Assembly: GCA_963082975.1 (NCBI GenBank)
Contig: OY720346.1
Location: 25,848,720 to 25,912,719 of the forward strand
DNA length: 64,000 bases
Reading direction: 5' to 3'
Source: Labia minor
Lineage: Eukaryota; Arthropoda; Insecta; Dermaptera; Spongiphoridae
Shown here: piece by piece, positions 25,659 to 52,988 of the stretch
Layout: every line of letters begins with the position of its first letter
Numbering within the stretch: position 1 is the stretch's first letter
Notes under the pieces: generated by a model
The model's database searches: none
What the model saw: only the letters and a program-made list of their open reading frames with translations
What the model was told of the DNA's origin: nothing
Translations under genes and position numbers: made by a program

Positions 25659-25712
25659 TAATTTTAATATCATAATAGTATACAATTTAATGTAAAATTT
25701 AATTTCATTATG

Positions 25713-25738: not shown

Positions 25739-25834
25739 GTTTCGCCTTAATGAGATCGTAAGTCATGATCGCCACCTGCACATATATTCTTCCAAATAAC
25801 CTTTCCCTGAACTACATAATCAATCCTATACTAA

Positions 25835-26382: not shown

Positions 26383-27047
26383 AAAATATACTTGTGTAAA
26401 TTTACTTTATTATAAATTTGAAAGTAGTTATGTCCTCGGAAAATTTGATTTTTATAAATATTAAAAATAAAGAAATCAAATCATTTAGAATAAATTATAA
26501 GAATGTATCAAATAGAGAAGTTAAAAAACAAGATGAGCGTCTGTGAAAGGAAAACTATTTTGCACGATTGAAAAAGCACACCTGCAGAGACCACACTTCT
26601 TGAAGCTGCTGCTTCTGGAGCTGTTTAGAATGCGTACATCGACTCGTGAGCTGCAATTACAGAAAATACATTTTAATGAGCAATCTGATTCCTATGTCTT
26701 TCTCTTTCATCGTTCGGTCCTTCCTTTTCCCAATCAGATAATCGAGCTGATCCTATTAACCTTACTTACTCGTACTCTAGCTCACAACTCGGTTTATTTT
26801 ACAGCCTGGATTAGTATCATGATCTCTTTCTCTCTCTCTCTCTCTCTTTCTCTCTTTTTTCTCATAATACGCTAGGAATAATTTTTCTGTAGAAAAAAAT
26901 CTAATCAGATCTTAAACTATTAAATTTCTAATAAATTAGCATTATTATAAGTATTTTATTATCATAAATATTGTTTAATGATAATAAATAATTGTAAAGT
27001 AGAAAAAAAATCAATATTACTAGTAAAAGGAATGGGTAAACCATACG

Positions 27048-30944: not shown

Positions 30945-33339
30945 ATGTAAAATAATTTTAGTATTTTAATATTACAGAAATAAGATAATATTTTAAAAAA
31001 TCTATACACTTTTTTAATCCTATTAATATTATTTATTTATTTATATCTTATTTTTTTATTTCCTATATATAATATAAATATCTAATCTTAATTATTTTTT
31101 TTCTTTATCGAGGCGAGAGTGATGGACATCAATTCAAGTCTACGAGCTGTTCTCCGAGTTTAATCTGCTAGAAATATCAACCCTTATTAACTCCGAGGTC
31201 AGTATTTATTATTAATTTTATTTTTAATTCAATTTAAATTTATTGATTATAAACTAATAAGCTATTTTTCTTCTTCTATTTCATGTTTCAATCTTCGTTC
31301 CTTGATTATCTTCTCCATCCTTCATGACGATGAAATGATTGAAATACAGCTCTCCAAATGTAAGTAATAATTGTTATTTATTTAGCATGGCGCACTTTAA
31401 AATAAAAAATGTAAATATAATATTTAAAGTAAAGTTTAAAAGAATATAGAAAGTATAATTAAATTACAATAAGTTTTTGCTTTTGATAATATTCATTAGG
31501 AGATTATAGAGAAATATATTAAATTATATGACAGAATTTAGTGAGATTAGGGAATTTCAGAGTACATCTTTCAAGAAGTAGCATTAATAAAGGAGACAGA
31601 AGAGACAAAGGTATTTTTAGAATTAGTAGGTTTCGATGCCTTATACTGGGTGAGTGGCTATTTTTTGATATATAAGTATATAGTTGTTAGGAATTTTCAG
31701 GTGGTTGCCTCCTACATCCATGCATGTTCTTAACATACTAATTCATAGATTAGATTAGAATTAATAAATAAATAAAATGTAGGTGGATAAAACAAATGCC
31801 ATGCTATTATTTAAGGGATGGTTTGCATGAATTGCATGTCAGGTCTGAATTGTGCCATTTTGTATTTCTGAGAGTGTGTTTGAGGTGGATTGAATGAACG
31901 GGAATTCGGGAAGGTAATTCAGCACAGTTCCTAAATGGGATTAGCCTGAACAGGAACAAATTGTTGGTTACCTTTTGAGCGCAGGGCTTTTTCGATTAGC
32001 ATGAGCCTTCCATGCCTATTGATGGAGGCTATGCACTCCCTAACTAGGTAGGTTTTATTTCAGGTTGCCCCGAATGTCGCGATTTCATTTCGAAATCCAA
32101 AAAATCAAAGGCACTCTCAGCTGATTCAAAGAGGCTACAGACTAAATGCCTTATATTTTTTTAATCTTTTTTTTAAGGCAAACTTTCTTTATTATTACTT
32201 TTTCTAAATTTCGGAAGGCGAGGCTTGGAAGGGCTAATTTATGGGGAAAGGAGGAGGCCCTATTAAATATTCAATTGTTTTTTTTTAATTTAATTAATAA
32301 TAAAAAATAATTGAATATCGCGATTATTTCCTTAACTTTTTATTTTCATTTTGAAATATACAATTTCATAATTTAAACTTTGATATATTTTAAATATTTT
32401 ACTATATAGGTAGAATTAATTATTATTATAATTTCTCAATTTAAAATTAAAATGCATACATCACAAAAAAATCATATATATTGCAAAAATATAACTCTTT
32501 TTCATTATTATTTCTTTTTAACCTTCCAAATATAAAAATATTTTAATTTTTTTTTATTATGGAAATTATTTCATATGAATATAAATATATTGTAATCGAA
32601 TATATCTATACTCAATAATAATTTAATATTAATAAATTATCAAATTTTTTTCTTATCATTGTACTGATAAATAATATTTGGAAAGCAATAAAATTTAGTT
32701 AAGTTTATTTAAAAAATTAACTGTATAATTGTTGTTAATTATAAACATGTGGTACAACTTATTTTAAATAAATAAATAAAATTAGACTCCTAAAATTTTT
32801 TTTAATTTTAATAGATCAAATATTCTTATTCTTTAGCTGACTTACAAATCCCATACGATCATTTTGCTTATTCTTATGTGTATTCTTTCCCAGTGTCCCC
32901 GCAAAAATTCTCCTGGAGATAAAAATGTCTCGGTTTACATAAATAATAATATCATCCGTGAATAAACCCAATATTATTCAATTTTTACCGACCGACGATA
33001 GTAAGGGAGGTATTGTTTTCACACCAAATTTCACATGTCGAGATTTTTATATATCACCACGAATCATGCATCTTGTATTGGTTTTATCCTTGCGAAAAAT
33101 CATCTTCATTAGTTTTTTCTTAATTTTAAATTATATGACGTCATCCAGCCATTCATGACGTCACAGCCTGGTCTTACATATATATTATAAATAAAATAAA
33201 ATTAAAAATATTTATGTTGTATCCATATCTGATTTTTATTATATTAATAGATAGATTAAAATTATTTGAAATTGTTTCTGTAGCTGAAAATTAATTTACT
33301 TCAAACCGTCGGTCGGTTCGGACCTGGCCACAGTTCAAC
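30945..33339 (+). repeat. Duplicated ~2.4-kb block, copy 2
   Basis: Same order and orientation as 1243-3614, beginning at ATGTAAAATAATTTTA. It has text absent from copy 1 (about 20 bp near 31511, 27 bp near 32296, 16 bp near 32597) and lacks about 26 bp present near 1597. The extra text near 32296 completes an inverted repeat, ATATTCAATT (32267-32276) with AATTGAATAT (32309-32318). It ends with family A element A6. No gene seen. Confidence 0.9.
32987..33339 (+). mobile_element. Family A element, short form (A6)
   Basis: Same internal deletion as A1 (3261-3614), its duplicate partner, so the deletion is older than the duplication. Unlike A1 it keeps both TGACGTCA octamers (33136-33143 and 33156-33163) and CGTCGGTCGGT. 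The hairpin arm has one change (CAGTTC for CAGGTC). Confidence 0.9.
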
Positions 33340-33488
33340 TTATTTAATACAAATATTTTAAAATAAAACATTGCTTCAGACTGTATCAGCTTTTGGTTCG
33401 GATAGTAGACTATTATCCTATTATCTAGTCACAATTAATCATTTAAAAATTAAAATTGTAATATAAATTATATTTTAAATATTAATAA

Positions 33489-34116
33489 GTTGACCTGTGG
33501 CCAGGTCCGAACCGACCGACGGTGTGAAGTAAATTAATTAGCAGCTACAGAAACAATTTCAAATAATTTTAATATATCTATTAATGTAATAAAAAAGAGA
33601 TATGGATACATAAATAATAAATATAACCATTTTTAATTTTATTTTATTTATAATATATATCCAAGACCAGGCTGTGACGTCATGAATGGCTGGATGACGT
33701 CATATAATTTTAAATCAAGAAAAAACTAATAAATATGATTTTCCCGAGGATAAAACCAATACAAAGTGCATGATTCGTGGTGATATATAAAAAAATCTCC
33801 TCATGTGAAATTTGGTGTGAAAATAACCCTTCCCTTCCTATCGTCGATCGCTAATACTACCACTTCCGGTTTCCGGATATGCACCCAAAGTTGATCAATT
33901 CATCCCACTGATGCATTAAGTAAATATACCAAATTTCATCAAAATCGGTTGAGCCGTTCAGGCTGTACACATCTATACGGACAGACGGACGGACAGACAT
34001 CATGCTAAAAATACTTTTTTCTGTTAAGAAAATGCATGATTCGTGGAGATATGTAAAAATCTCCACATGTGAAATTTGGTGTGAAAACAATACCTCCCTT
34101 ACTATCGTCGGTCGGT
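33489..34116 (-). mobile_element. Family A rolling-circle element, full length (A7)
   Basis: Minus-strand copy running from ACCGACCGACGATAG (ends 34116) to the hairpin GACCTG-GCCA-CAGGTC (starts near 33489). All modules are present, with both TGACGTCA octamers (33675-33682 and 33695-33702). Just before the hairpin the inverted terminus reads CCGTCGGTCGGT, and the A-typical TTTGAAG next to it is altered. It faces A6, 150 bp away. The 92-codon minus-strand frame at 33857-34135 is only the element read through. Confidence 0.9.
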
Positions 34117-34379
34117 AAAAATGTATAATTATCATAATATAAAAATCAATATTATCAATATTATGTGCAATTAAAATTAGAAAAAAAATAAAAAAAAAGC
34201 AAAATGTGCAGCATCGTACACGTGGCGGAAGTGAAACTTCTTACAATCTAGAGAATAAGAGAAATTTTAGTTGAGAGTGTGAGTGAGAGAGAAATAGAGA
34301 AAAATAAAGGGATCATTTCGAAAGACATATAACAGTATAAAATTTTCGTAACAAATATTCGCTTTATTATTATTATTAT

Positions 34380-34742
34380 CTACTCTATCATCATATCTAC
34401 ATTGCCTGTACTATTGTCGGTTGGTGCTTCAATTGGTAATACTGATATTAATGGCTTGTGATAACTAAAATAAGATATATATGTTCGTGATTCGATATTT
34501 TCTATATAACGTGTAAAAACAGCATCTATTGTAGTTCCAGATTTTGTTGTTGATTCCTTGGGATCGTTATTTATAAGCAGACCAAATGTTTCTCGAAGAA
34601 AGTTGATCAACGGCAACGAATCATCAGATTCAAAATTTACATTAAAATCTCCCCCGAGAATTAGAGGGATTTTATCTTCGCCTCGTTCAAGTGCATTAGC
34701 ACCTGTGTGGCTATAAACCAGTAGTGAAATAAATAATATCGT
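34380..34742 (-). pseudogene. Helitron/Helentron-type endonuclease C-terminal fragment
   Basis: The minus strand is open for about 120 codons: FISLLVYSHTGANALERGED, then the motif LILGGDFNVNFESDD, LPLINFLRETFGLLINNDPK, STTKSGTTIDAVFTRY, SRTYISYFSYHKPLISVLPI and a stop at 34380-34382. GDFN and the later SYHKP segment (in the place of the usual SDH) mark the C-terminal half of an endonuclease/exonuclease/phosphatase domain. This variant is, to my knowledge, found fused to the Rep-helicase proteins of Helitron-like elements in arthropods. The N-terminal half, Rep and helicase are absent, and the frame is closed upstream, so it is a fragment. Downstream on the same strand, at about 34220, AAGAAGTTTCACTTC occurs; it recurs at about 37073. 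Confidence 0.75.
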
Positions 34743-35010
34743 CTAAATTTTGGTCGTTATTTTTTTTCGGCATAGTGAAATCTGTGGAGTAGAGAAAAGC
34801 AGTTTTAAATGCAATAATAATTTTAAATTGATTTAGTAGTGTTAAAGTAATGTTGAGATTCGGATAAATAACGTGAATGGTCATCGACGCACATAACTGT
34901 ATGTGTTGGCGTGTGAATTGCCGACCATGTTCACACACACAATTACATGCGTCGGTATGCGTGCACGCTGTATATTTGACTTGAGAATTTTAATTATTTC
35001 ACGATATATA

Positions 35011-35240
35011 TCTTATCTTATTATGCTAGCTAAAATTGTATATATCTATCTATTTATCTATCTATATATATTGGTTCTCAAAAACCGCTCTAACGATTTT
35101 TTTCAAATTCACACTAGATATAGTATTTATAAAGAAAAATTGAGTTTTATTGATTACATCTCTTGAAACTTACAGCTTCATTATTAATTTCTTAATTGAA
35201 AATTATATATGGGTGACGTAAATGGCATCCATTTTGAAAT
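35011..35240 (+). mobile_element. Helitron-type 5' end (family C, copy 1)
   Basis: Starts TCTTATCTTATTATGCTAGC, then a (TATC)n run, GGTTCTCAAAAACCGCTCTA, TATAGTATTTATAAAGAAAA, TTGAGTTTTATTGATTACAT and a late CTTCATTATTAATTTCTTAA then GGGTGACGTAAATGG. It matches 58022-58230 in order. The 5' TC start and this series of boxes are typical of animal Helitron 5' ends. No 3' end can be assigned with confidence. Confidence 0.7.
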
Positions 35241-35246
35241 TTTACT

Positions 35247-35676
35247 CCCGCCTTTTTTTAATTTTGTATTAATATTTTTTTTATATTTAAAATATTTTAA
35301 AATTTATAATTTAATTTCGAAATAAAATTAAAAATATTTATTTTTAATAAAATATATATATATATTTATTAATCCCGCTTTTTTTTTAAATGATATTGTA
35401 TTAACATTTTTTTATATTTAAAATATTTTAAAATTCATTATTTAATTTCGAAATTTTATATTTAAAATATTTTAAAATTTATTATTTAATTTCGAAATAA
35501 AATTAAAAATATTTATTTTTAATAAAATATATATATATATTTATTAATCCCGCTTTTTTTTAAATGATATTGTATTAACATTTTTTATATTTAAAATATT
35601 TTAAAATTCATTATTTAATTTCGAAATAAAATTAAAAATATTTATTTTTAATAAAATATATATATATTTATTAATC
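35247..35676. repeat. Tandem repeat array of AT-rich units
   Basis: Three head-to-tail units, each beginning at a CCCGC(C/T)TTTTTT motif (35247, 35374, 35549) and running through TTTAAAATATTTTAAAATT, TAATTTCGAAATAAAATTAA and a (TA)n run. Units 1 and 3 are about 125 bp; unit 2 is about 175 bp because it contains an extra internal copy of the TTTATATTTAAAATATTTT segment. It directly follows the Helitron 5' end. Confidence 0.9.
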
Positions 35677-35745
35677 TCTCTCAAAAAAAAACAACAAAAC
35701 AAATAAATGTCTTTGAAAGATGGTAAAAATATCTTTGTAATTATC

Positions 35746-35821
35746 AAAATATCATAGACCAGCAGTAAGAACAATTGTTTTTACTCCCCGAGTTCGAAGG
35801 ATCGAAACTCGCCGCGTGCAT
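35746..35821 (+). other. tRNA-like / SINE-head remnant
   Basis: GACCAGCAGTAAGA resembles an RNA polymerase III A box and GGATCGAAACTC a B box, at tRNA-like spacing. They are followed by CGCCGCGTGC and a T9 run that would terminate pol III. The cloverleaf does not close, so it is at best a degenerate tRNA or tRNA-derived SINE head. Confidence 0.3.
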
Positions 35822-36050
35822 TTTTTTTTTATCTATTTTCGTGATTTATTTATTCATTGTTCTTTTATTAATTAAGTTTTAGATAGTTTTATAATTTTTA
35901 ATATTTTTTCAATAAAATATTATTTAATACATTTAATAATTGTAATAAATAATTAAAGAATTGTATATCAATATTTTTTAAAGGGTAGAGCGAGCTCGGT
36001 GTCTCAGGTATTAATATTACCAGCCAAATCCAATAATAATGAATCATTTT

Positions 36051-36176
36051 TTACTATCTCGCCAGAGATAGTATTGCGATCACGAAAATTTTCGATGTTG
36101 AGATTTTGATGTTTTTATACTTTTTGAAGGTTCCTGAATCATTTTCACTAAGGTTGAGAAAAATGTCTGTGTGTGT

Positions 36177-36212
<36 letters not shown>

Positions 36213-36239
36213 AGGCAAGATTACGCAAAAACGGTTTGA
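36051..36239 (+). mobile_element. Family B element, 5' fragment (B3)
   Basis: Starts TTACTATCTCGCCAGAGATAG like B1, with the AAAATTTTCGATGTTGAGAT segment, a long (GT)n core (about 36168-36210) and GCAAGATTACGCAAAAACGG, then stops matching after GGTTTGA. The 3' two thirds, including the hairpin, are missing. Confidence 0.85.
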
Positions 36240-36699
36240 TTTTATATATGTTTATTTATTCACAAAAAATTAATTAAATTGTAATTTAAATTCTTATAGT
36301 TTTATTAAATAAATCATTTTTAGTTATAATTTTATATAAGCATTTTTTAATTGAACCTATTCAATCTTGTCATTCCCTAATCAGCATACGCGGTTTCAAT
36401 AACCCTTTTAATTATTCTAAATTCAATCTTTAATTAAATCTAATTTAACACACAACAATTCCGTCTCATTATTGTAATACAAAGTTAGAAATATTAAGTT
36501 AATATAATTAATATTATTTATTTATTAATACCAATTAATAATATTAATTACTTATAAATAATTCATAATAATAATAAATTGTGATACCAACTTATAGGAA
36601 TATTAAAATAATATAATTATTATTTTACATATATATGAATATAATATAAATATTTTTAATTTTATTTTAAGAATAGATATATATCTAAAAGGCGGTAAC

Positions 36700-37090
36700 T
36701 GTGAGGTCACATACTAATTTTTATTCTTTCACCCAGCAGAGGCTAAGAAATATTATTCCGCGTCAACGTACTAGTGCGCATGCGCGCCGTGGACTTTCAA
36801 CCTAGCGACAGGGTATTAGAACGAAAGACAGCATAAAACGAAGACGCAGATAGCCTCTTTCTCAAAGACGAAAGACCGGACAAAAGAAAGACCCAGATAG
36901 CCTCTCTCTCAAAAACGAAACACCGCACAAAAGAGAGACAGAGATAGAGGCTATCTCATTCTCACTCGTTATATCTATATCTTTTTTCTCTCTTGCGTTT
37001 CGTAACGCGTTACGAAATTTCAATTTTTCAATTCACTCTCCATTCTCAACCAAATGTCAGGACGCCGCTAAAGAAGTTTCACTTCAATAA
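36700..37090 (+). other. G+C-richer segment with 20-bp palindrome; Helitron-related candidate
   Basis: Contains GTGCGCATGCGCGC (near 36775), two imperfect direct repeats of an AAAGACGAAAGACCG / AAAAACGAAACACCG type (36860-36950), the perfect palindrome TTTCGTAACGCGTTACGAAA at 36998-37017, and AAGAAGTTTCACTTC at about 37073. The last motif also occurs on the minus strand downstream of the endonuclease fragment at 34220. I infer a Helitron-related end or regulatory segment. There is no protein. Confidence 0.45.
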
Positions 37091-38100
37091 ATCTTTCATA
37101 ACTAATTAAAACAAAAATGAACAAAAACAAATTAAACATTTATTTCTCATTCAAAAATTCATCTTACATTGAAATTTTTTAGCAAAAAAAATTGTATAAA
37201 TTATTTATTTATTTAATAATTTCATATTCTATTATTATTGGAGAAATAAATTAAAATTTAAAAACATTTAATTTAATAAGTAGAAATATTTATCAAACAT
37301 TTTCACATCTTAGTTCAGAATTAATAATTCCTTTACCTACAAAAATAAATGATATATTAATGTTTTTTTAATTGGTGCAAAATAAATGGTTGCCCGCCAG
37401 TATGAAGCGGTCAACAAGCTACCTAATCATCGTTGTCAGCTTATACTGTAATATACAATATAAATATATATACTTCCTTCATATACATTTATACTTTTCA
37501 TTTTGAATAATGATTAAAGAAATTCATAACTTTATAAAGAAATGTTTTAGTAATTAGAATATCAACATATCATGATAAACTCATATATTATGTTTGTAAT
37601 TATATTATTCATGTACTTTATTCAATGTCAACAGAACTGGACCAGTGGTTTTATTTTCAGAAGGCTTTACCAATTTTCTAATTAATTGTTTGACAATAAG
37701 AATTTATTTCTTTAGTTTAAGATCGATTTGTAAATTGATTTTCGAGGTGACTGAATTAAACCTTACTCGATTTTATATATATTTCCGATTAATATTATAA
37801 AAAAATTTTTGGAAGAAAACACTTATTAGTTTACTTAATTATATTTTAGTGAAGAAATGAAGAATGATGTTACCGAAATGATATTACAAATATACCATAT
37901 TTGATTAAATATGTGAATAACAAATAAAAGATTATCAATTCACATTTAAAATGGAGTCACATTTATATGATAGAGTTAAGTGAGTGCAAAGGAAAAGAAA
38001 AATAACTAAATAAATAAAAATCACCATCTGGATTTTTTCGCTTATATAAATTTAATTAATCAATTTTCATATATTATTATTATTTTATATTTTGATGTTT
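37091..38100. other. AT-rich intergenic DNA, no gene seen
   Basis: A G+C-richer patch at about 37388-37440 (GGTTGCCCGCCAGTATGAAG) is too short to classify. The rest is A/T-rich. Confidence 0.55.
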
Positions 38101-38849
38101 TTACTATCTCGTAAGAGATTGTATTGCGATCACGAAAATTTTCGATGTTGAGATTTTGATGTTTTTATACGTTTTGAAGGTTCCTGAATCATTTTCACTA
38201 AGGTTGAGAAAAATGTCTGTCTGTCTCTGTGTGTGTATGTGTGTATGTATGTAACCAAGATTACGCAAAAACGATTTGAGCTAGAATGATGAAATTTGGT
38301 ACATGGGCATTATTCAAAATTCATAGTTTTCTATCAACTTTTGAAAAATGTAGCTCAGCCGGAAGAGGGTCATTACCTAAAACGTTTTGATTTTTTTTCT
38401 TCTAAAATGATCGTAAAAATATTAACGGATTTTGATGAAATTTGGTATATTTACTTAATGCATCAGTATGATGAATTGATTGGTGTATATCCGGGAACCG
38501 GAATTGGAAGTAATACAGATCGACGATAGGAAGGGAAGGGTTATTTTCATACCAAATTTTACAAGAGGAGATTTTTTAAATATCTCCATGGTTTTATCAT
38601 CGAGACAAATCATCTTCATTAGTTTTTTCTTAATATAAAATTATATGAAGTCACCCAGCCCTTCATGACGTCACAGCCAGCGCCTCATATATTATAAATA
38701 AAATAAAATTAAAAATATTTATGTTATATCCATATCTGTTTTTTATTGCATTAATATATATACATTTAAATTATTTGATATTGTTTCTGTAGCTGGAAAT
38801 TAATTTATTTCAAACCGTCGGTCGGTTCTGTGCTTGGCCACATGTCAAC
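38101..38849 (+). mobile_element. Hybrid element: family B 5' half joined to family A 3' half
   Basis: Starts TTACTATCTCGTAAGAGATT and follows family B through the GT/GTAT microsatellite, CAAAAACGATTTGAGCTAG, GATGAAATTTGGTACATGGG and on to GATCGTAAAAATAT at about 38420. It then switches to family A at TAACGGATTTTGATGAAATT and continues through the second A unit, one intact TGACGTCA and CGTCGGTCGGT to a damaged A hairpin (GCTTGGCCACATGTC). The GATGAAATTTGGTA box therefore occurs twice. A plus-strand open frame at 38296-38529 simply reads across the junction. Confidence 0.88.
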
Positions 38850-41184
38850 TTATTTTTTAATATTGTGGCTTAAGTATTTTGAATATTTTAATCTAATAAT
38901 TATTATTATACTAAAAAATTTATCAACAATTTTAACATTATAAATTTATTTCAAATGTAATGTAATTATTTATATTACTTTGAATGGAAACAAGATTACC
39001 TTTTTACTTTTAATTCACAAATAAAGTGAAAATTATCGCCACGATCCCTAAAAAAATATTATTAAATATATAATATACTCAGTATAAAATTTATTTATCT
39101 AATCTTTAAATATAAAATCATCTTGCTAAATAAAACTTCTAAATTACAGAGAAAGGATAAAAATAAATTGAATCAATTTAATATTGTTATTTTTTGTTTG
39201 TAGGTTAGTTATTTAATAAAATGTTCTATATAGGGTTGTATTATATGCATTTCGTGAGAATGTTTCTAAATATTTTAAAAATCATCTAAATTTAATGTCC
39301 AAATTAGTCATTTCTTTTTTATTTTGACCTTTTATTACTTAGAATAATCTATAAGCCTCCGGGTTCTTTATTTTAAAGGAGAGGGGAATAATCACAACGG
39401 ATCAGTTTATATGTACCAATTTTATATATATATTTAAAGATGAAGAAAGAAATAATTCCATTTAAGGAAATGAATAGGGTGTAGTATGTTATTTTGCTTA
39501 TAATAATGCAAAAGGTAAAGGCGGTTAAGGATCACTGAGAATGATGAGATCATAAATATTATTTTTTTATTTATAAATATTTAGTATATTAGTATGATAA
39601 TTAAACTAAACTTTACCAAATTAAAAATACCATTTCCAAATGTAGAAAAAATGATGGAGAAAGTATAATAATACAACTATGTTTCATAAAAGATCATATT
39701 TTCAATATTCATATATATATTGATTAAATAGATAAAATATTTTAAAAAAATTGCAAAAATGGAAATTTTATTATTGAATAACTTATAAAAGTTTTCTTGA
39801 ATAAATAAATTTTAATATTTTATATTAATTAAATTAAACCTATAAATATTATTCATAATAAAATTTCTTTATTACATACATTCGAAGAAGTTTCAAGTTG
39901 TCTGATATATTTACTGAGAACTTTGAAAAAAATAAACCTTATTATCACACAACCAAAATGCGCATAAAGCAATCATGTTGAAACTTCGCCAAAATTCTTT
40001 AATATAAAATATTCTTAAAAGATTTGTAATTTTAAATTTAATTATCAAACTACATAATTTCCGTTGTATGTATGTATGTGATGTCTCTAACATTATGAAG
40101 TTAGTTACAAATTCAGTTTAAACTTATTTGCAAACATAGTTTTCAATCGGTTCGTCTAGTAGTTTACATAATGTATTAAAATGTTTCAACCAATGTTTAC
40201 AGTTAAATCTATAAATTTTATATTTTATAAAATTATTAAAATTTAATTTCTATTAGTTAGTGACTGTTTTTTAAAAATTAAAATAGATCGACCCGATATA
40301 AAAGAGTTGTAAAGATACTGTGAAATTTTATTGTTTGTTACTTTATTTATAAATCATTCTTTCTTGTATCATTTTATTAAGTAGTATTTTATCAATATTT
40401 GTTGAATTAAAAATTAAAACAAGATTTTTTATGTATTATGATTTTTATATAATACATTTTTTTCACTTCAATTAGGAAATTAAAAGTTTGACTGTAACAA
40501 TTTTACAAATTTTATTTTCACCCTATATTCTCGTGAATTGTTTGCTTTGGTTGCTTTCGGGTCACAGGGTCATATTATACAGGAACCATTTGACAGGTGG
40601 CATGGAATGAAAGAAAAAAAAACTCACAATTGGAGAGTACAAAATAGTTTAGACACGCAAGGAAACAAGAGAGTAAGAAATTAAAATAGAACACAATTTC
40701 GTTCTAATTATTATTATATTATGTAAGTTTAAAATATATCTGGGAATGCTAGGAAGCATTACTATCAACGAACTTTGATTTATATTTATTACAAAATTAC
40801 ATAAATAATTCCAATTTATATGATCTTAATATATTGTGAGAATTAGATAAATAATGTATATGTTTATAATTTATAATTAATAATAATAATTTTGATGTGT
40901 ACTCTTTGAGTGCTTGACATAAAATGACAAATAATTTGTAAAAGACCTTAACTCTATACATTGGTTTGGCGATTGCGTCAACAAACATTTGTTTTAATAT
41001 TGACGCAATATTTATAAATTTAATTGTTTATGAATATTTTGTTATTAATTATTAATTAATATCTTTAATTTACTTTTTTATTATTCCCGATAATTATCTT
41101 AATGTTCCCGGGAATTTCTCTAATGTTCCCGGGCATTTTTTTAATGTTTACAATAATGTCTAAACATTTTTTTTTACAATTTTT
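38850..41184. other. AT-rich intergenic DNA, no gene seen
   Basis: No recognisable protein or element. TGTATGTATGTATG occurs near 40067, and a triple CCCGGGAATTT / CCCGGGCATTT / TTCCCGATAAT motif lies at 41085-41140. Confidence 0.55.
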
Positions 41185-41315
41185 ACTTTCCCGCATACTT
41201 CGTATAAGGGAAGTATTGGAATCGTCAAAAATTTCGACTTCGAGATTTCGATAGATCTTGACGTTTTAGACCTCCCTGAGTCGGAAAATACCATTTTTCG
41301 AATTATGTCTGTGTG

Positions 41316-41346
<31 letters not shown>

Positions 41347-41625
41347 TTTACTCAAAAACTAATCAAGCTAGGACTTCGAAATTTGGTACACCGATATTAT
41401 TCACAGTTTGTAGATTTCTATCAAAATTTCGTCAAAATCGGTTAACCGGAAGTGGTACTTTACCTACACTGGTTGCGTTTACCTTTCAAGTAAAGTACCA
41501 GTTTGCTTCGAGATATTTGCTTCCTATTTTGTATATAGATTTAAAAATATGAAAAAAAATTCAGATACCAAATTTCATCATGACCTGACTACCGGAAGTG
41601 ACATTTTACTTATACAAGTAAATTA
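41185..41625 (+). mobile_element. Family D element, relative of family B
   Basis: Starts ACTTTCCCGCATACTTCGTA after TTTTT. It keeps the B order: GTATTGGAATCGTC, AATTTCGACTTCGAGATTTC, TTGACGTTTTAGACCTCCCT, ATGTCTGTGTG, a (GTAT)n microsatellite (41311-41344), CTCAAAAACTAATCAAGC, CGAAATTTGGTACACC, TTTCTATCAAAATTT and CCGGAAGTGG. Identity to B is partial, so it is a separate subfamily. The 3' end is unclear; it runs into the Helitron-like end at 41634. Confidence 0.75.
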
Positions 41626-41633
41626 TAAATATA

Positions 41634-41710
41634 CTAGCTGCTCCGAGCGCCTTCGGCGCTCTTCACACCTAGACGGGGGCTCCGCCCCCTGTACCCCCGA
41701 GTGATACATA
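41634..41710 (-). mobile_element. Canonical Helitron 3' terminus (CTAG end with hairpin)
   Basis: On the minus strand a perfect hairpin GAGCGCC-GAA-GGCGCTC (41645-41661) is followed, seven bases later, by a terminal CTAG and then T. This matches the rule for Helitron 3' ends (hairpin about 10 bp before CTRR, insertion next to T). A second hairpin, GGGGGC-GGA-GCCCCC (41675-41689), lies upstream on that strand. The body of the element, to the right, is lost. Confidence 0.6.
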
Positions 41711-41860
41711 GTTTTTGGTTGAAAGTCTGTATGTAAAAGGTTTTTATCCATTTTGTTTCAATCAGTATAAGTAGATAAGACATGTATTTTTGTTTTCTTG
41801 TAAAATATATTTTAATTTAATCAGTAAATTAATTATATATTATTATTGTATATGTTATAT

Positions 41861-42600
41861 TTATCTAACTCTGTGTCTCTACAGTTTTCGAAAGTTCTTA
41901 GCCGCAGCATCCACATTTCTCTAAGAGTCCCTATCCTGAGCTACAACCAAATCCTACCCAGTCCCATCTCTCTATGTCCCTTCCTTCATTGTCCACCCAC
42001 CTTGGTCCTTGGTCTTCCACCGGATGTTTCCCAATCGGTTTCTCCCAATTTCTAGTTTCTCCAATTCCATCCACGTCCCCTTCCCATCCCAGCCTTCTCG
42101 ATTTTATAACCTTAACTATATCTGGACATTATTTCTCGTTATGCCATCTCCGCCATCCCCCTGCGACCTCATCTTCTTTTGGCCTATAAATGCTGCGAAC
42201 AATATTAATCTCACAAATACTCCAAATCTACTCTCGTCTCCCAGAGTCATCGATAGGGTGACCAAACGTCCCGTCTTTAGGTGCTCTGTCCCAAAAATGT
42301 CTTCGGGACACCCTACTGTCACGTTTTTTCAATATTTAGGACATTTCGTAATTTTTTTTTCAAAATTTTTTCAATTTAGTTCTAAAAAAAAAGGTATACC
42401 ATTTGTCCCGGTTTGGTGATTTCGAAATATGGTCACCCTAGTCATCGATCAACATGAAAAATAATTGTTTTATATATTTTAATTTTGATCCTCTTTGATG
42501 AGATAAGCCCCTTTACTGCATAATAACAGGAGTTACTCAATTACAACGTCGATTTAAATTCTTCTCGAATATTATTATCCTTCGTGATTAGAGATTTAAG
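41861..42600 (-). pseudogene. LINE 3' fragment, third copy, split by a MITE
   Basis: Minus-strand copy of the element at 5966-6533. From 42600 it reads AATCACGAAGGATAATAATA and the GCAGTAAAGGGGCTTATCTC segment. It is interrupted at 42254-42440 by a hAT MITE and resumes with GTATTTGTGAGATTAATATT, AAGAAGATGAGGTCGCAGGG and then the AGAACTTTCGAAAACTG-like 3' end and ACAGAGTTAGATAAATA tail near 41861. Plus-strand frames at 41846-42419 are antisense shadows of it. Dead: frames are broken in several places. Confidence 0.85.
42254..42440. mobile_element. hAT-type MITE nested in the LINE fragment (187 bp)
   Basis: Perfect 11-bp terminal inverted repeats TAGGGTGACCA / TGGTCACCCTA, flanked by a perfect 8-bp target-site duplication GTCATCGA (42246-42253 and 42441-42448). 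Internal text CGTCCCG and GTCCCGGTTTGG forms a subterminal inverted region. No coding capacity. The nesting dates the insertion after the LINE. Confidence 0.95.
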
Positions 42601-45600
42601 TATTTAAATATTTATACTTTTTCAAATTCTATATTTTGTATGTTAATTGTATGTAAGTCGTATCCGTATCATAATTCTTGAATTTTTTTGTTTAATTACA
42701 TTTCGGTTGATTTTTCCCCAATTTCTCTAATCATATGTCTCCTCTTCCAGTCCAATTCATTTACCTATCAATGTGGCATAAGGAAATAAATTTCTTAATT
42801 TGGCTAGAACACTCCATTTTTTAAAATTTTAAATAGAGGGAGAGAGAGAGGTTCTAATTATATATATATATCTGTTTCTATGACAGCAAAAAAGTAAACA
42901 AATTACATACATACAAACACTCTCCTTTATATATATTTCTAGAAAATGAAACACCCGCAGCTCAGCTCAGGTGTTACCTAAGATTCTAATTTCTTTTTTA
43001 TTTTTCATCATTTGAGGTACCCTTCACCTCAGAAAAATTTGGTTACCTTACTCCTTGTAGTTTAGGCTCTGGAGTTTTTTGCGTACAGACGGACACTATC
43101 GTATTAAATATATAGATATAATAATGTTAAACCATTTTACTTTATAATTTAAATTAATTAGTTTGTTTATTTTTATTGTTGTTAATTATTGATGTTTTAT
43201 CGTTCTCAAGATAATGGATAAAAATAACTTGCAACAAACAAAGAAACAAAATATGCAAGAAACACTACACGAATATAGCCGTCATTTAAACTTCAGATTC
43301 GATTATCAAAAAAAAAAAAAAAAAAAAATTTTAGAAATTTAATCCTAATTCCAAGTTATGAGAAATACAACGCTTAGCTCAAATTAACACTTTTTAAAAA
43401 AATCATTATATGCTGCTGATGGTTCCCACTTTTTATGTATGTGAAAAAAGAAAATTTCTATATTTGATTGACCATTAATTATAGGTAGATCTTTCAGGTT
43501 TGGCGGATGTTAGTTATTTAGAAGAAAATCTCACTTTTTGAGTAATAATTTGTTGGTATGCGTGTATTTTCCATTACTACCAAACGTACGCTACAAATTT
43601 AGATTTAGCCTGAGGATATAACTCATATTATAGGGTCGCTTTGATTCTAAAACAAACTATGATTAATTTTTTTTTTTTATAATAAAATTAAGCAAAATGA
43701 AGTAAAATTATGAAAAAAAAAAAATAAATAAATTTTCAATCTAATACAATTTTCAAAACTTATTTTCTCATATTTTCTGATAGAAAAAAATAAGACATTT
43801 CTAATAAGGCGTATTAAAATATTTAAATTATTTATAATGAGAAAAATTCCCACCATTTAATTAATTCTCTCTTTAAATTTCTCTAAACATACCGATTCCA
43901 TCTTTTATTTATTTATAAGTTTTTAATTATTTATAAATATATATTTTGAAATCCTAATACAAATTTAATGAAACATTCGACATTGATTGACTGACCCAAA
44001 AGAAAAAAAAACAAAACTAAAATCTTATCTAAAATATAAATAATAATGAAAAACTGAAATAGACAGAGAGAGTGAGAGGAAAGTGGGAGAGAGACTTGAA
44101 TACAAGAGAGGGAAGGTGAAGAGTGAATCAATTATCACAATGACGAGGCTTTTTGACTTAATAAAAATGTCCTTTAGGCAAATTATTATTTTCAAATTTC
44201 AACACTATGATAATTTTGCTTTGATGAAATATTAAAAAATATACAAATAATAATTTTAATAATAATAATAAATAGATTTAATAATAATAAAAATTAAAAA
44301 AAACGTGGGAAGTATACTTAAATCAAAAAGCATTTGTCACTCAAGTAGAAAAAAAAAATAAATAGTTGACAAAATGTTTAAATAATTCATATATAAAACT
44401 GTTCACACTTTCTATTAGTAAATTAAATGAATCGTGTCCATTTAAAGATTCAAGTTAATATATTAAAGAAATCCTTTATTTTTTTTTATTTAATATTGAC
44501 AAGAGTTTTGAATAGAGGAAAAAAAGGCTGAATGAAAAATTAATGAATAGCATCGTTGATGTTTTATGTACATATATATGTACCCATATATTAATATCTT
44601 TCTTTTAAAATTTTAAAAAATTTGTTGTTAGAATAATATGAATCATTTTATTATTTTTTTCACCTAACATCTTGAGAATGATGAATAATAAATCAAGATT
44701 CTTTTTTCTAAGACATAATGGTGGTACAGAAGGAAAGAACGAAGGAAAAATGTTTAAACTAATTATGCTTATAGGATATAAAAAAAACCTCTAGCAATTG
44801 ATTATTTTATTTTTTTTAATGATTGATTTGTATAAAAATTTATTATATGTATTTTAATCAAATTTAATATATATATATATAATATTAAACCATAAAATTT
44901 TTATATATAAATAATTATATGGATGAATAGAGAAAAAAATGTTAATTTTCATTAAAAAAGATTATTTAAATTTTTTATAAATTTACTTGAAATTGATTAA
45001 TTATTAACTATGGGTGTGTTAAGAAGAAAATTCTTAGAAATTAAAGATAATATTTACAATAAAGAAAATATACCTATAAGAAAAAATATTTTTTTCTAAA
45101 TAAAATAATTGAAGAAAAATATGGTTTTATATGACACTTATAAATTTAAAATCATTATTAATTAACATCACAAATAATATAATTATATAAATAAAGTTTA
45201 TCAAAATAATTTTAGAAATTAATTTTTGGCCTATTTTGATAAGTTGAGCACTTTCATTTCATTTATTAGTTAATATTATAGGGTATTACTTAATAAAATA
45301 TATACTTAACAAACAAAATTAACAATCTTTAATCGTAAATAATCATAAAACATAAATCGTCCGTTACATTCATCTGCATACATAAGAGTGGACCAGAGCA
45401 TAAAGCAACCACAGGTCGCAAGTATTGTAGCATAGGGGTCGCTTACATAGCCCTCACACAGCGCCCTCAGTTAACTTAAACTTTAAATGAAATAATTTAA
45501 ATTATTTCCTACAATATATATTATGAATCTGGTAAAAGGATCAAATTTATAAAGAAACTTAAAGAATATAGAAATTGCTCGTTATTGTATTATACCTAAA

Positions 45601-46162: not shown

Positions 46163-47645
46163 GTATAGATATATCATTTATTTTGAATTAAATATTTTTC
46201 TTAAATAATATAACACAATTCGTATCATAGCTGAATTTGAATTGCTTTTTTTAAATTTAAAATTTATTTCAACCGAGGATAGGAGAGGAAGGGAATAAAT
46301 AATCTAAAACACCTTTTCTTTCTTTTACTATGCCGTATGGCTCAGGACCTTGTCGGTATCTACAAAAAGAGTATTAAAATCATGATTATTAATAATTTAT
46401 TTTGTATATCTATATATTTATCATTAAACATTAATTAATTTCTTCTTTCTATCATCTATAAAAATAACATGATAAAAACATTAATATTTTCTTTTTGATT
46501 ATGTACTATAATATATATATTATCAATAAATAAATATATTTCTATTTAATTATATTGGAATTCATCTCTAGTTAGTCATTAATATAATTGAATATCCACT
46601 TCATTTCTCAAGCTTAGAAATGAAAATAATCATTTGAGTTAATTATTCAATTAACGGATCAAAGGATATCCCGCTAAAGAGAAGGTATTTTAATTTTATT
46701 ATCTTGTAATCAAATTTATATGTACATTTACATACATCTTTCTATCTAATACAACAAATATTGTATTTTTCACACACATTACACCTTGAAAAGTAAATAT
46801 AGATAAAAAATTTAATTTTCATACAATTTTCACCAACTACCAGTGATATATATATGTAAGAATGTAAGGGTGAAAATGAAAATTTAGTTGATAGGTTAAG
46901 TATTTTTAAACATTAAAACATAATAAATAATATAATTGGAGTTCAGACAGCCAGCACGTAAAAAGAGAAGGATTAGAAATAAAACTCTTTAACTACTTTC
47001 TCATTCAATGTGTCAACGTTTCGATCCCTTATTAGAACCCTCTTCAGTAGAAACTTTGGTTTTCTTAATTTTTGTATATGTATAGTGATTATGAGCCATA
47101 TATCTATATATTCTTTGTTATTTTTGAATATGAAGGGGATATACATTATATATATATCGAATTTCTTATTGGCATAGATTAAAAATAATCTATTTAATTT
47201 CATCTATATTTTTTCCCTATCTATTTATTTGTATTTTTCTAATTTCAGTATTTACATTAAGAAATTAAAATTAAATTCATTACATTTGCATTCATTCTTT
47301 TGATATGAATATTAATGCTAATCATCTTAATAGTCTTAATTATTAATATAATACTTCCTTATATAATCTAAACCTTCTATTCAACATTTCTTATAATCTT
47401 TTCCTCCACCCATTTCCTTATATTGTCTTAGTTGTTTCTTATAGTTTGAGAGATATATATGTTATATAATTGATCTTCAAAAAATAAATAAATATGAATT
47501 GAGTAGTTACAAAGTGAAGGTTTTTAATTTACATGTAAATATTCCATTTAAAATAAATGAATTGTTTCAAAAACATTGTTGTTGTTCCTGAATCATAAAA
47601 TGTTTGAATGGTAGAGAACATCCAAATATTTAGCTATTATAATAA
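46163..47645. other. AT-rich DNA with a GAAACGTTG-type repeat piece
   Basis: On the minus strand at about 46935-47060 the text CTGAAGAGGGTTCTAATAAG, then GGATCGAAACGTTG, then an A/T segment and CGTGCTGGCTGTCTGAACTC looks like the end of a dispersed repeat. It shares ATCGAAACGTTG with the loop of 27221-27392. The core resembles a hammerhead ribozyme (CTGANGA ... GAAA) but stem III is not evident. Elsewhere nothing is recognisable. Confidence 0.45.
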
Positions 47646-48248
47646 GTTGACACGGGGCCAGGTCCGAACCGACTGACGGTTTGAAGTAAATTAATTTCCA
47701 GCTACAGAAACAATTTCATATAATTTTAATATATCTATTAATGTAATAAAAACAGATATGTATATAACATAAATATTTTGAATTTTATTTTATTTATAAT
47801 ATATATGTAAGACCAGGCTGTGACGTCATGAATGGCTGGATATCGTCATATAATTTTAAATTAAGAAAAAACTAATAAAGATGATTTTTCTCGAGGATAA
47901 AACCCATACAAAGTGCATGATTCGTGGCGATATATAAAAAAATCTCTTGTGAAATTTTGTGTCAAAATAACCCTTCCTTCCTATCGTCGATCGCTAATAG
48001 TACCACTTCCGGTTTCCGGATTTGCACCAAAAGTTGACCAATTCATCATACTGATGCATTAAGTAAATATATCAAATTTCATCAAAATCCGTTGAGCTGT
48101 ATACATCTATACGGACGAACGGACAGTAGACATGCTAAAAATACTTTTTTTTCTGTTAAGAAAATGCTTGATTCGTGGAGATATGTAAAAATCTCCACAT
48201 GTGAAATTTGGTGTGAAAACAATACCTCCCTTACTATCGTCGGTCGGT
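47646..48248 (-). mobile_element. Family A element, full length, decaying (A9)
   Basis: From ACCGACCGACGATAG (ends 48248) to a broken hairpin (GTTGACACGGGGCCAGGTCC on plus). Modules are in order, with small deletions, including part of the second unit (CTCATGTGAAATTTGG shortened). One TGACGTCA is intact (47821-47828); the other is mutated to GATATCGTCA. Confidence 0.88.
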
Positions 48249-49349
48249 AATAAAAATGAAATTGATAAGGTCGCTAGAATGCAGAACGAATATGTTTCTT
48301 GTAATTCATTCCTATATCTTGTATTACAATCATTTGAAATTATCAACATACCTTAGAACTAGATGATCCCAGATCGTATGAAGAAATAAATAATCATCGA
48401 GAATGGAGTGATCCATTTATCAAATGATGTTACAATAAAATATGAAGTGATAAATGGGACTATGTTGTTGTGGCTATTATTCTTGTTATTCAACTTAGTT
48501 GTTGGTTGTTTAACCGAAAGCGCTGTTTGAAGATCTTTATTAGAAAAACCGAAGAATTGATTCCCAAATGGAGAGGATAAGACTAAAAAAGGACAACAGT
48601 TAATCTCTTTCTCTCTTATAGTCTTCTATATCAGAGTGACTTCCTTCCTACTAAGGATTAATATATAAGAACTCACGTAGAAGAGAGGAGGAAACTTAAG
48701 CACCAACAAAAGCAATAATCCAGCTTCTGTTTATAGTAGGTGGTTTTATTCCTCACTAACTTCTACCAAGACTATGTTGACAATAAGAATATTTATAGCT
48801 ATATTTAGTGATTTAGATAAAAATGTTATAAGATTAGATATAAATTCAAAACTGTCTTTTATTTTATTACCATTTTGGATATATGTATCTCTATTAATTT
48901 TAATTATATCTTACACACATAAATATAAAATATATTATTAATCTAATAAATTATATTTATAACTATGTAATAAATATTGTTTATGTAGTATTCTAATAAT
49001 TGACTTAAAACCCTCTAACAATTTTATAAATAAAATTTCAAATGAATAATAATTAACAAAACTTTCATTGAAATTATATATATACGTTATTAATACAAAA
49101 AGAATTGAATAATTTTAAATTTATTAATTTTTTTAAAATCAATTTATTTTTTGAGTAGGTCTTTGGCATTATTTCACGACAATGTCGATCTAAGCATGAA
49201 AATATAATCAATTTATAAGCACTGTTGTTATTAAAAAAATTTGATTTTTTTAACAGAAACTTGAAGTTTTTAATAAAATGAATTTGAATGAATGAATGAA
49301 TTGAAGTTTTCTAATATTTTATAAAATCTGCCGTCCCTATGATCTAGAT
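48249..49349. other. AT-rich intergenic DNA, no gene seen
   Basis: A/T-rich with one less biased patch at 48360-48720. A (GAAT)n run lies at 49284-49303. Confidence 0.55.
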
Positions 49350-49618: not shown

Positions 49619-50882
49619 ATCTAGATCTAGAATGTTTTCTTGTCGCTGACATCAAAACCTCCACTTTTGAATCGTTTAAACCAGCTTGTTCACCATACAT
49701 AGAATAAACGAAGGTGACGAAAAAATTCAAAAGTTAGGAAATATCTTTATTTTTTTTATTGTAATCTTATTGATGTTTGTCTTTTTTGAAATTAATATTT
49801 GATTGATAATAACGTGATGTTGATGTTGTTAAGGACATATTTTTATTAAAATTAGCAAAATTTATTTGTTGTTGATAATAATAATAATATAATAATAATA
49901 TTGTACATTTCTTATCTAAAATAAAATAAAAGAATTAAAATAAAATAATTGATTGAATTTCTAAATAAAATAAAAACCGAACAGTCTTGACTAGACTTAA
50001 ATCTTTGATTTTATGAAATTAAATATAAAAAAAATTAGTTAACTAGATTTATCAATATTACTAATTTATTTTTTAATTAATATTCAATTAATATTGATAA
50101 AAATAAAATTGTAATATACTACTTTAAATTTCTATAAACAGGTAACGGGCCTCTCCATAATAATTAATGGGATTAATATATTTTTCTTTTAAACAACAAT
50201 AAGCCACTTCTTGGAAAAATAATAAAATAAAATCAAAAGGAAAAATTTTTTAGTTTGCTTTCTACAGTGAAAGAGATTAGACATCATCAAAAGTTAGCTG
50301 TGCGATTGATTGTAAATATTAAATAACTATTTTATTTATTTCTTTTAATTATTAATTAATATAATTTATAATTTATTTAATAATTTAATTTTAATTTAAT
50401 ATATATATATATTGATGTATTTGTTTCATGCTTTTCTATACATTCATATTTCTTGAAAATGGAATTGTTACGCGTTACTTTAATTAATACTTACTTACTT
50501 AAGTTATATTCTTTTATTTCTTTAATAATGTCTTCTACAATTCCTTTTTTTTTCCAAAAAAAAAAGACTGGAATAATATGTTTTACATATTTATATTTGA
50601 AACCAATCTTTTGTTGTGTTCGATGTATGATAACATAATTTTGGAATTCTCTTTCCAAAACTTAATATGTTTAGTTTGTGTTCTTTTTCAGTATAAACCT
50701 ATAATATTCAAAAATTCCTAGATTGTAATTATTACTAATTTTATTACAACAACAAATAAATATTTCTAACATACGTGTTAATTTTGTTATATTAAGTACA
50801 ATATATTTCATTGAATATATTGAATTAAATAACTTAATGATAATCCTATGTTTTTTTTTATTAATTTCACTAAATTTGTTAA
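49619..50882. other. AT-rich intergenic DNA, no gene seen
   Basis: (AAT)n-like text at 49878-49902. No coding signal. Confidence 0.55.
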
Positions 50883-51125
50883 CACACTATGAGCGGGGCG
50901 GGTATTTGTACCCGTTGCGGGTACTGCCACTTATAAGCGGGCGGGTATTTATACCCGTTGCCACTTATATGAGGGATATATATTAGTTATCTTTTAAAAT
51001 AAGTAATTTTAAGTGAGACAAGGGAAAATATATATTATATAAGTGGCAACGGGTATAAATACCCGCCCCGCTTATAACTGGTAGTCTCCGCAACGGGTAC
51101 AAATACCCGCCCCGCTCATAGTGTG
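50883..51125. mobile_element. piggyBac-like MITE with nested palindromes, copy 1 (243 bp)
   Basis: Flanked by TTAA on both sides (50879-50882 and 51126-51129), the piggyBac target. Ends CACACTATGAGCGGGGCGGG and CCCGCCCCGCTCATAGTGTG are perfect inverted repeats, and the match extends to about 40 bp. Each arm holds two copies of a GCGGG-CGGGTATTT(G/A)TACCCG-TTGC unit that is itself palindromic (CGGGTA/TACCCG). A/T-rich centre, no coding capacity. Confidence 0.92.
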
Positions 51126-51747
51126 TTAATTATATATGTGGCTACTTATATAAAATAAAAAATATCTAAAGGATTATTATACAATAGATTTATATATAAT
51201 AAAGAATAGAATAAAAGTATCATAGTTTACAATGTGGAAAGCTTGATTTATTTGTTTGTTGAACATAAACAGACTCGTTTATGTTGAAGGAGCGATTTCA
51301 AGGTATTAATGCTGGAATGGGCCAATTGTGTTGTTCCTGTATAATAAAATAAACGAAAAAGACATAGGGCGGGTCAAAGAACATATGAAAAACAAAGCAA
51401 AAATCAAACACCCGACCCTCCCAACCAACACACCACACTGTCAATGCACACCCATTCATTATTCGATAGAAAATGATGAGTTACCTGCGGCAATTTTGAA
51501 AATATTTTTCTTATTATATTAAAAACCAATAATTTAAAATATATATTTTGTAGATTATGTATTATTAATACATAAATTTCAGTCCATTTAATAATAGGCT
51601 GATTAGAATTAAATTAAATTATGTGATTATTGGTCATGAACATTTAATTAAAAATATGAATCGTTGAATGTATTTAATAACTCAATTTATTATTTTATAT
51701 CTTTTTGTAGTTTTTTGTAAGGATATCAACTAAAGAAACTGCTTTTT
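51126..51747. other. AT-rich intergenic DNA, no gene seen
   Basis: Holds a 64-codon plus-strand frame (51328-51522) with a proline/threonine-rich middle that I do not recognise; not called. Confidence 0.5.
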
Positions 51748-52370
51748 ACCGACCGACGATAGTAAGGGAGGTATTGTTTTCACACCAAATTTCACATGTG
51801 GAGATTTTTACATATCTCCAGGAATCATGCATTTTCTTAACAGAAAAAAGTATTTTTAGCATGATGTCTGTCCGTCCGTCTGTCCGTCCGTATAGATGTG
51901 TACAGCCTGAACGGCTCAACCGATTTTGATGAAATTTGGTATATTTACTTAATGCATCAGTAGGATGAATTGATCAACTTTTGGTGCAAATCCGGAAACC
52001 GGAAGTGGTAGTATTAGCGATCGACGATAGGAAGGAAAGGGTTATTTTCACACCAAAGGAGATTTTTTTATATATCACTACGAATCATGCACTTTGTATT
52101 GGTTTTATCCTCGAGAAAAATCATATTTATTAGTTTTTTCTTAATTTAAAATTATATGACGTCATCCAGCCATTCATGACGTCACAGCCTGGTCTTGCAT
52201 ATATATTATAAATAAAATAAAATTAAAAATGTTTATATTTATTATTTATGTATCCATATCTGTTTTTTATTACATTAATAGATATATGAAAATTATTTGA
52301 AATTGTTTCTGTAGCTGGAAATTAATTTATTTCAAACCGTCGGTCGGTTCGGACCTGGCCACAGGTCAAC
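51748..52370 (+). mobile_element. Family A rolling-circle element, full length (A10)
   Basis: A well-preserved copy: ACCGACCGACGATAG after TTTTT; first unit; TGTCTGTCCGTCCGTCTGTC core; CTCAACCGATTTTGATGAAA; GGAAACCGGAAGTGG; second unit (short deletion of the CATGAG part); two TGACGTCA octamers at 52157-52164 and 52177-52184; CGTCGGTCGGT; hairpin GACCTG-GCCA-CAGGTC ending CAAC. A good reference copy for the family. Confidence 0.92.
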
Positions 52371-52988
52371 TTATTTTAATATTTTCTAATTTATTTTAGA
52401 ATTGTTATTGTCCAATTCTTTACAAATATCCAGTCAATAATTCAATATATTTATATATAAATTGATTTATATTACGTTAATTTGAGAATTAATTTGAAGC
52501 ATATAAAAAATATTAAATTAAAAAATAATTCACCTGTATTTTAATTTGTTCTAAATTAAAACACTATATAAAACAATTCTATTAGGTTATAAGAATGAAA
52601 AAAAAATTAAATAATTATTGATTTTCTCATTATTGAATCAAAACATTTACCTTTATTCATAGCTGTTTTTTTTAACTTTTGTTAATCAAAAACAAACAAT
52701 TCAATTTTTATTTTTGGAAATAAAAATAAAAAATAAATAAAAAAAATAGGTACGATGATTGGATCAGACCTGTTTGTTTTGTTTTTAATAACATTACAAC
52801 TTAATAAATGATATGGTAATTTAAAATAATCAATAAATAATTAATTTTAAGTTTCTATTACAAAAGCATAATAAATGAAAAATAATTAAAAATAACATTT
52901 TTTAATTAAACAGATTGTTTCCATAATGAAGGTATCAGTTAATTTCCAAATGTTATTGTATCTCATTAATTACATTCGTCTTTTCTTA

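Follow-up and report, generated by a model that had tools for sequence, protein, structure and literature searches.

Why should transposable elements with different ends share the same internal boxes in the same order? This question is raised by positions 41,185–41,625 of a 64,000-nt window of the Labia minor genome (contig OY720346.1), where a first-pass annotation had noticed such boxes in three repeat families, A, B and D, as well as in the 5′ ends of a Helitron-like family C. It had read them as a common functional core—for example an origin or a promoter—rather than as the product of recent copying. Our analysis suggests that A, B and D are probably three families of HINEs—DINE-1-like, non-autonomous partners of Helentrons—and that one homologous 5′ block is common to them, with the boxes as its best-conserved part. 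The shared motifs in these three families most likely result from descent from one type of rolling-circle transposon known from fruit flies. In a self-comparison of the window, A, B and C are multi-copy and D is single-copy; the genome-wide searches covered the 604 Mb assembly with its 71 contigs. Table 1 lists the features of the window.

Table 1 Repeats and landmarks in the 64,000-nt window; elements of families A, B and D are probable HINEs.
Feature	Positions	Strand	Details
D, 5′ part	41180–41633	+	TTTTT, subTIR ACTTTCCCGCATA, inverted repeat, pre-microsatellite block
D, landmarks	41304–41345; to 41390; 41446–41455	+	Microsatellite; box1; CCGGAAGTGG
Canonical Helitron-like insertion in D	41634–43116	−	5′ TC; 3′ hairpin GAGCGCC-gaa-GGCGCTC (by eye), then CTAG
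D, resuming past the insertion	43117–43190	+	Right limit approximate; junction from comparison with L018, L023, L037 and the 11-copy summary
B, 5′ part	38098–38421	+	subTIR ACTATCTCG, inverted repeat, microsatellite, box1 38291, box2; fused to A
A, 3′ part, from within its box1	38424–38858	+	Joined to the B 5′ part as B5′-A3′ chimera
A, complete	51743–52381	+	subTIR ACCGACCGACG, microsatellite, box1 51931, CCGGAAGTGG
A, complete	33484–34121	−	
A, complete	47641–48253	−	
A, complete	23750–24384	−	
A, complete	63291–63931	−	
B, box1 and box2, without 3′ end	25832–26386	−	
B, both ends, box1 deleted	9437–10000	+	
B, without 5′ start, box1 altered	58718–59305	+	3′ end kept
A5′-B3′ chimera	25489–25662	+	A 5′ end to microsatellite, then B 3′ subTIR and hairpin
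C copy 1	35004–35163	+	A|TC at ~35014, microsatellite, CTCAAAAAC box; inside repeat X, opposite sense
C copy 2	58013–58235	+	Followed by A-like segment CTTCATTA...TGACGTCACAG
Repeat X	34191–37090	−	15-nt palindromic subTIR GAAGTGAAACTTCTT at both ends; endonuclease-like frame 34383–34742

The boxes are where they were first reported, give or take a few bases. Box1 reads GAAATTTGGTAC at 38291 (B) and 41378 (D) and GAAATTTGGTAT at 51931 (A), and ATCAA-TTT and then CCGGAAG follow in the same order in all three families. At one box the families differ, with CCGGAAGAGG in B versus CCGGAAGTGG in A and D. The likeness is wider than first noted: it begins at the first base (TTTTTAC...GTATTG...AAATTTC...GAGATTT) and runs across the microsatellite, and the three families can be aligned jointly over their first ~270 nt, from base 1 through the microsatellite to CCGGAAG. 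The order within this block is T-rich start, subterminal inverted repeat (subTIR), inverted repeat, ~90 nt, microsatellite and the core GAAATTTGGTAYA ... ATCAA-TTT ... CCGGAAG.

With a GC content of 25% in the window, chance similarity of AT-rich sequence has to be considered, and for family C against B and D the scores indeed do not rise above those of shuffles. For A, B and D, however, chance is refuted by comparison of the sequences. Smith-Waterman scores, calculated with the microsatellite removed, were reached by 1 (A–B), 0 (A–D) and 0 (B–D) of 1000 dinucleotide shuffles for the part 5′ of the microsatellite and by none of 1000 for each of the three pairs for the part 3′ of it. The boxes of these families thus align better than shuffled AT-rich sequence, beating 999 or 1000 of 1000 shuffles. 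In addition, the B-type box1 pattern has 17,999 exact sites genome-wide (8973 + 9026) versus 0 for the reversed control, a count that leaves out the boxes of A and D because their letters do not fit the B-type pattern. As an explanation of the whole, chance is next to negligible.

Plain common descent is a more serious contender: the three families would stem from one ancestor and the boxes would be its least-changed remainder, with no function attached. The homology over the whole ~270 nt speaks for this, since one ancestor is enough to explain the likeness. Against it stand two features of the alignment, both resting on three families—the clustering of invariant positions and the retained spacing. 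Among ungapped, non-microsatellite columns, 92 of 217 are invariant, and these are clustered (variance, P=0.0008; longest run of 11, P=0.006; best 13-column stretch, P=0.019). CCGGAAG follows GAAATTTGGTA at a distance of 68 nt in D, in the B copy at 38098 and in each of six A copies, and of 70 nt in the B copy B26389, so that the spacing in A, B and D is nearly constant. From GAAATTTGGTA to the next shared motif the distance is 18 nt in 9/9 copies, and from GTATTG to AAATTTC 16 nt in A, B26389 and D; box1 itself lies 174–199 nt from the element start in copies having the microsatellite. We therefore regard descent without function as unlikely. Spacing and clustering by themselves fit function as well as descent. 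A long hairpin formed by an inverted repeat between box1 and box2 was suspected by eye and rejected, as it was equalled in 847 (A), 121 and 80 (two B copies), 981 (B58), 372 (D), 997 (C1) and 218 (C2) of 1000 shuffles.

Alternatively, the families might not have inherited the core but acquired it from one another through recombination or template switching. Mixed elements provide the material for this idea: the window holds a B5′-A3′ (38098–38858) and an A5′-B3′ chimera (25489–25662), and in nine of the 20 fetched D copies the head of an A element is nested inside D. However, the family cores differ at many positions and the homology reaches the first base, so any transfer of the core between families must be old, and we hold this explanation to be improbable. 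The same differences argue against recent copying as the source of the sharing among A, B and D. What survives of the initial notion of a common functional core is, hence, that the similarity is neither chance nor recent, while the boxes are part of a homologous 5′ block and not isolated sites. Judging by the mixed elements, the end of one family can apparently be joined to that of another, with deletion after insertion as an alternative origin of such elements. In locus L072, a B element follows an A element head to tail, its start abutting the A 3′ end.

The ends of A, B and D had been described as different. This applies to their sequence and not to their architecture, which is alike in the one element examined per family (A from the window, B from locus L071, D from locus L018). 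In each, the first five bases are TTTTT, and a subTIR (11 nt in A, 10 nt in B and 13 nt in D) begins at base 6, with its complement near the 3′ end; these pairs were equalled by 1/500, 2/500 and 0/500 shuffles for A, B and D, respectively. The 3′ subTIR ends 26–33 nt from the chosen 3′ limit, and downstream of it, 10–14 nt from that limit, lies a hairpin of 6 bp (A) or 5 bp (B and D). In the complete A element at 51743–52381, these are the subTIR CGTCGGTCGGT and the hairpin GACCTG-gcca-CAGGTC. The 5′ inverted repeat has perfect stems of 9 nt in B and 7 nt in D, and of only 4 nt in A, where it is weak. The microsatellite in the 5′ block consists of GTCTGTCCGTCC in A, of GTCTG and TGTG repeats in B and of TGTG and TATG repeats in D. 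TTAC is present at the start of 5/5 complete A copies of the window and of 21/21 D copies; the B starts were retrieved using that string. GCGGGAAA occurs only at the D start. For D, no 3′ end was found within the window, and it was taken from the 20 fetched copies, summarized as 11 plain and nine composite ones. After the hairpin, A ends with CTTATT, B with CTAATT and composite D copies with CTTATT, endings that resemble the CTRR of canonical Helitrons; L018, a plain D copy, reads CCCGATTTTT instead of CTTATT. Similarity of the 3′ halves to A does not support homology, with 127 and 195 of 500 shuffles for D and 210 and 105 of 500 for B reaching the scores.

Taken together, the T-rich start, the subTIRs, the microsatellite and the 3′ hairpin mean that A, B and D are built like rolling-circle transposons. 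They share the rolling-circle design with canonical Helitrons and differ from these by their subTIRs and by a start that is T-rich and then reads AC, the canonical 5′ TC being absent (the first base is approximate). The closest known design is DINE-1 (INE-1) of Drosophila. As described in PMC2374699, DINE-1 elements carry a T-rich insertion, subTIRs, a partial 5′ inverted repeat and a 3′ stem-loop, have no reading frame and reach hundreds to thousands of copies; their block A consists of A1, a (CCGT)n(CTGT)n microsatellite and A2, with a conserved core of ~90 bp that, according to the authors, may act in transposition. Common to them and to A, B and D are the T-rich start, the subTIRs, the partial 5′ inverted repeat, the microsatellite in the 5′ block, the 3′ stem-loop, the lack of a reading frame and the high copy number, and the boxes lie at the position of block A; A, B and D differ by other subTIR sequences and by the coexistence of three types in another genome. 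The block of A, B and D is probably a DINE-1-type 5′ block—an already known type—in new families. One DINE-1 type each is given for 11/12 flies in that paper, and three types with different subTIRs for D. willistoni, with the core reportedly conserved among all of them (PMC2374699).

Related elements from other animals agree with this picture. HINEs of a mite, Culex, D. ananassae and D. willistoni are described in PMC4067079 with a subTIR near the 5′ end, a 3′ subTIR and a 3′ palindrome, and the distances of subTIRs and palindrome in published HINEs (PMC4067079 and, for oyster, PMC7492417) are similar to those in A, B and D. The oyster HINE bears a GTCY-type microsatellite (PMC7492417). GTCY repeats are likewise given, in PMC3630058, for the DINE-1-like Helitron2_Cv of the blow fly Calliphora vicina, whose 5′ region up to the repeat is 65% identical to a D. 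virilis element; its likeness to A, B and D is one of described structure alone. At the sequence level, an approximate stretch of Drosophila INE-1 matched weakly: the scores were reached by 21 (D), 47 (B), 203 (C1), 225 (A) and 719 (C2) of 1000 shuffles 3′ of the microsatellite and by 70 (D), 586 (A) and 845 (B) of 1000 shuffles 5′ of it. Because of this weak match, the likeness to INE-1 remains a lead.

Searches for relatives outside this genome covered viral contigs, genome contigs, phages and plasmids. Exact patterns had 0 matches in viral contigs except for one resembling chance, and one pattern had eight matches in genome contigs, all bacterial records and resembling chance. Among phages, D gave four records with short, weak matches (E 0.1–0.5) and the approximate INE-1 stretch gave none; there was no match in plasmids searched with A and none in Rfam at gathering scores. 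A literature search that covered few subscription journals returned papers unrelated by title for the box letters, none for the approximate INE-1 string and, for element structure, the DINE-1 and HINE papers cited here.

If the core matters for mobility, substitutions might be expected to be suppressed in the boxes, as the first-pass annotation had proposed to check. Within A, they are not: the boxes vary at 11/416 versus 11/470 for the spacers in the six window copies (P=0.83), and 14/1860 versus 78/7836 in the 20 best-matching genome copies (P=0.42). Within D, the boxes are half as variable as the spacers (14/2047 versus 74/5440 in 21 copies including the window copy, P=0.016), which is suggestive. 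In the genome-copy comparisons (20 A, 21 D), the block GTATTG..GAGATTT was scored as box, and all rates are lowered as the copies were picked for similarity. Since variability within families is not clearly lower in the boxes than in the spacers, any constraint would act on the mobile source lineages. The between-family pattern, which rests on three families, is thus the relevant one, as dead copies are unlikely to show constraint.

The copies themselves vary in whether they have box1. Among start-to-end pairs from the window and 69 loci, box1 is found in 70/75 and absent from 5/75—which gives no estimate of the need for box1, because the box or full-length likeness was the reason for picking many of the loci, and nine of the 70 pairs are the inner A-to-D pairs of composites. 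Genome-wide, the search with A yielded 1542 candidates, the best 40 of which were scored, and that with D 76 candidates, 40 of which were scored and all 40 were matches. Thirty loci were picked by the box from the first 1.6 Mb of contig 1; the 5′ string of B is present in 22 of them and its 3′ string in 18. A box-less subfamily of B was considered and rejected: the box-less copies of similar length at 9437 and in locus L056 carry different deletions, and box1 was hence lost independently.

These observations bear on a rival in which the core serves the autonomous Helentron as an internal promoter or 5′ UTR element and is kept in HINEs—as deletion derivatives—by descent, without a role in mobility. 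The core lies ~190 nt inside the element, a place that would suit sequence upstream of a Rep gene, block A is reported at the 5′ end of autonomous copies (PMC2374699), two-ended copies without box1 exist and there is no constraint within A. On the other hand, the subTIRs differ between these gene-less families and the core does not. We consider the promoter a possibility of less than even standing. Under the favoured HINE reading, the core may instead play a role in starting rolling-circle transposition. A Rep-helicase-endonuclease of a Helentron, made elsewhere, would nick the T-rich 5′ start of A, B and D; one strand would be peeled off and transferred, with a stop at the 3′ hairpin, in line with published ideas for this class. 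The core, being retained while subTIRs change, would then be a cis site used early, for protein loading or strand opening.

The HINE reading draws on the homology, order and spacing of the block, on the subTIR pairs and hairpins, on the high copy number and on a Helentron-type Rep in the same genome. Speaking against it are the five of 75 pairs without box1, a repeat X without exact GAAATTTGGTA, the perfect 5′ inverted repeat of just 4 nt in A, the constraint that is absent within A and weak within D, and the weak match to the approximate INE-1 stretch.

As for the Rep, the genome contains 104 matches to the Helitron Rep family. Among 20 of these, 19 bear the canonical Helitron signature RGLPH, and one (L107) has no recognized signature. 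A match of another group, L109, carries RGSPH in an open frame of 1785 aa, and RGSPH is the published Helentron signature (PMC4067079). Judged by these signatures, both Helentron and canonical Helitron Rep types are encoded in this genome. None of the elements read was an autonomous one ending like A, B or D, which also speaks against the HINE reading. Of the canonical Helitron Rep loci, eight (L094–L100 and L102) have open frames of 1537–1655 aa and near-identical scores; two of them lie oppositely oriented 7 kb apart, possibly reflecting an active family.

Repeat X offers a counterpart with a different start. Exact GAAATTTGGTA is absent from X on either strand and no box lies near its start, although X contains, in opposite sense to its frame, both C1, which has a C-type box, and a B fragment truncated within box1; X is therefore core-less at its own start alone. 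Its endonuclease-like frame matches a Pfam endonuclease family below threshold (E 0.0027, 18 bits versus a cut-off of 27.4), and no solved structure and no relative among viral contigs was matched; a 3′ hairpin was seen by eye. X resembles the mite HINEs by its palindromic subTIR, and A, B and D differ from these by having a core—the mite HINEs are reportedly devoid of inverted repeat and core (PMC4067079). The same source places a palindromic-subTIR Helentron family beside DINE-1 in D. ananassae and D. willistoni. Both this pairing and several core-sharing types in one genome are, thus, already reported in Drosophila. X also appears recently active: 22 further copies of 98–100% identity are found among 40 scored of 5353 candidates, 21 starting at query position 71 or before and one at 125, and all reaching 2966 or beyond.

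It is tempting to extend these findings and to view the core as a family-independent initiation module of core-bearing Helentrons, with one Rep acting whatever the subTIRs, ends being combinable and a second, X-like Helentron lineage with palindromic subTIRs starting without the core; we regard this extension as rather doubtful. Some invertebrates harbour DINE-1-like elements in very large numbers, and the cited papers leave open which cis sequences start their transposition. In this one genome, subTIRs differ among three core-bearing families, mixed elements occur between these families and the Helentron-like repeat X has a core-less start; such natural variants could help to tell apart what subTIR, core and hairpin each contribute.

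If the module reading were true, family C would show the module in Helitron-like ends as well. The claim of the same boxes in the same order stands for A, B and D and is weaker for C, which resembles A (scores reached by 0/1000 shuffles for A–C2 and 3/1000 for A–C1) but not, in the same comparison, B and D (100 for B–C1, 120 for B–C2, 591 for D–C1 and 403 for D–C2 of 1000). With the register fixed at CTC(A/G)AAAC, 21–22/36 positions of C agree with B and D, a level reached by 17–31 of 127,928 background windows; this register was picked with the data already in view, and the repeats themselves form part of the background. For the second segment said to be shared by A and C (TTAA...TGACGT), CTTCATTA...TGACGTCACAG, the match to two A-type copies is clear in C2 (0/500 shuffles for either) and weak in C1 (2/500 and 63/500). 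Both copies show A|TC near the left limit; no 3′ end was identified for either of them, C1 lying within X. C is probably a weaker relative carrying a related core.

The D copy of the window is interrupted by the insertion at 41634–43116, which shares with canonical Helitrons the 5′ TC, the 3′ hairpin with CTRR and the A|T target. Uninterrupted D copies represent the empty site and read AAATATA|TATAATAG, from which it follows that the insertion entered between A and T without target duplication. It has no significant match to the boxes (221–650 of 1000 shuffles). Within it, another repeat (41856–42613) is similar to 5946–6529 and 7785–8308. Elsewhere in the window, a 2.4 kb repeat is present at 1243–3620 and 30945–33345 with 91% identity; its right edge is the 3′ end of a shortened A element, and ~2 kb upstream of that element have moved along with it, as if copying had begun upstream and stopped at the A 3′ end. 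A frame at 17566–17862 on the minus strand gave a sub-threshold match to a retrotransposon endonuclease domain. Finally, two palindromic elements (50879–51129 and 61223–61435) are related to each other, with 86% self-complementarity and 94% identity between copies.
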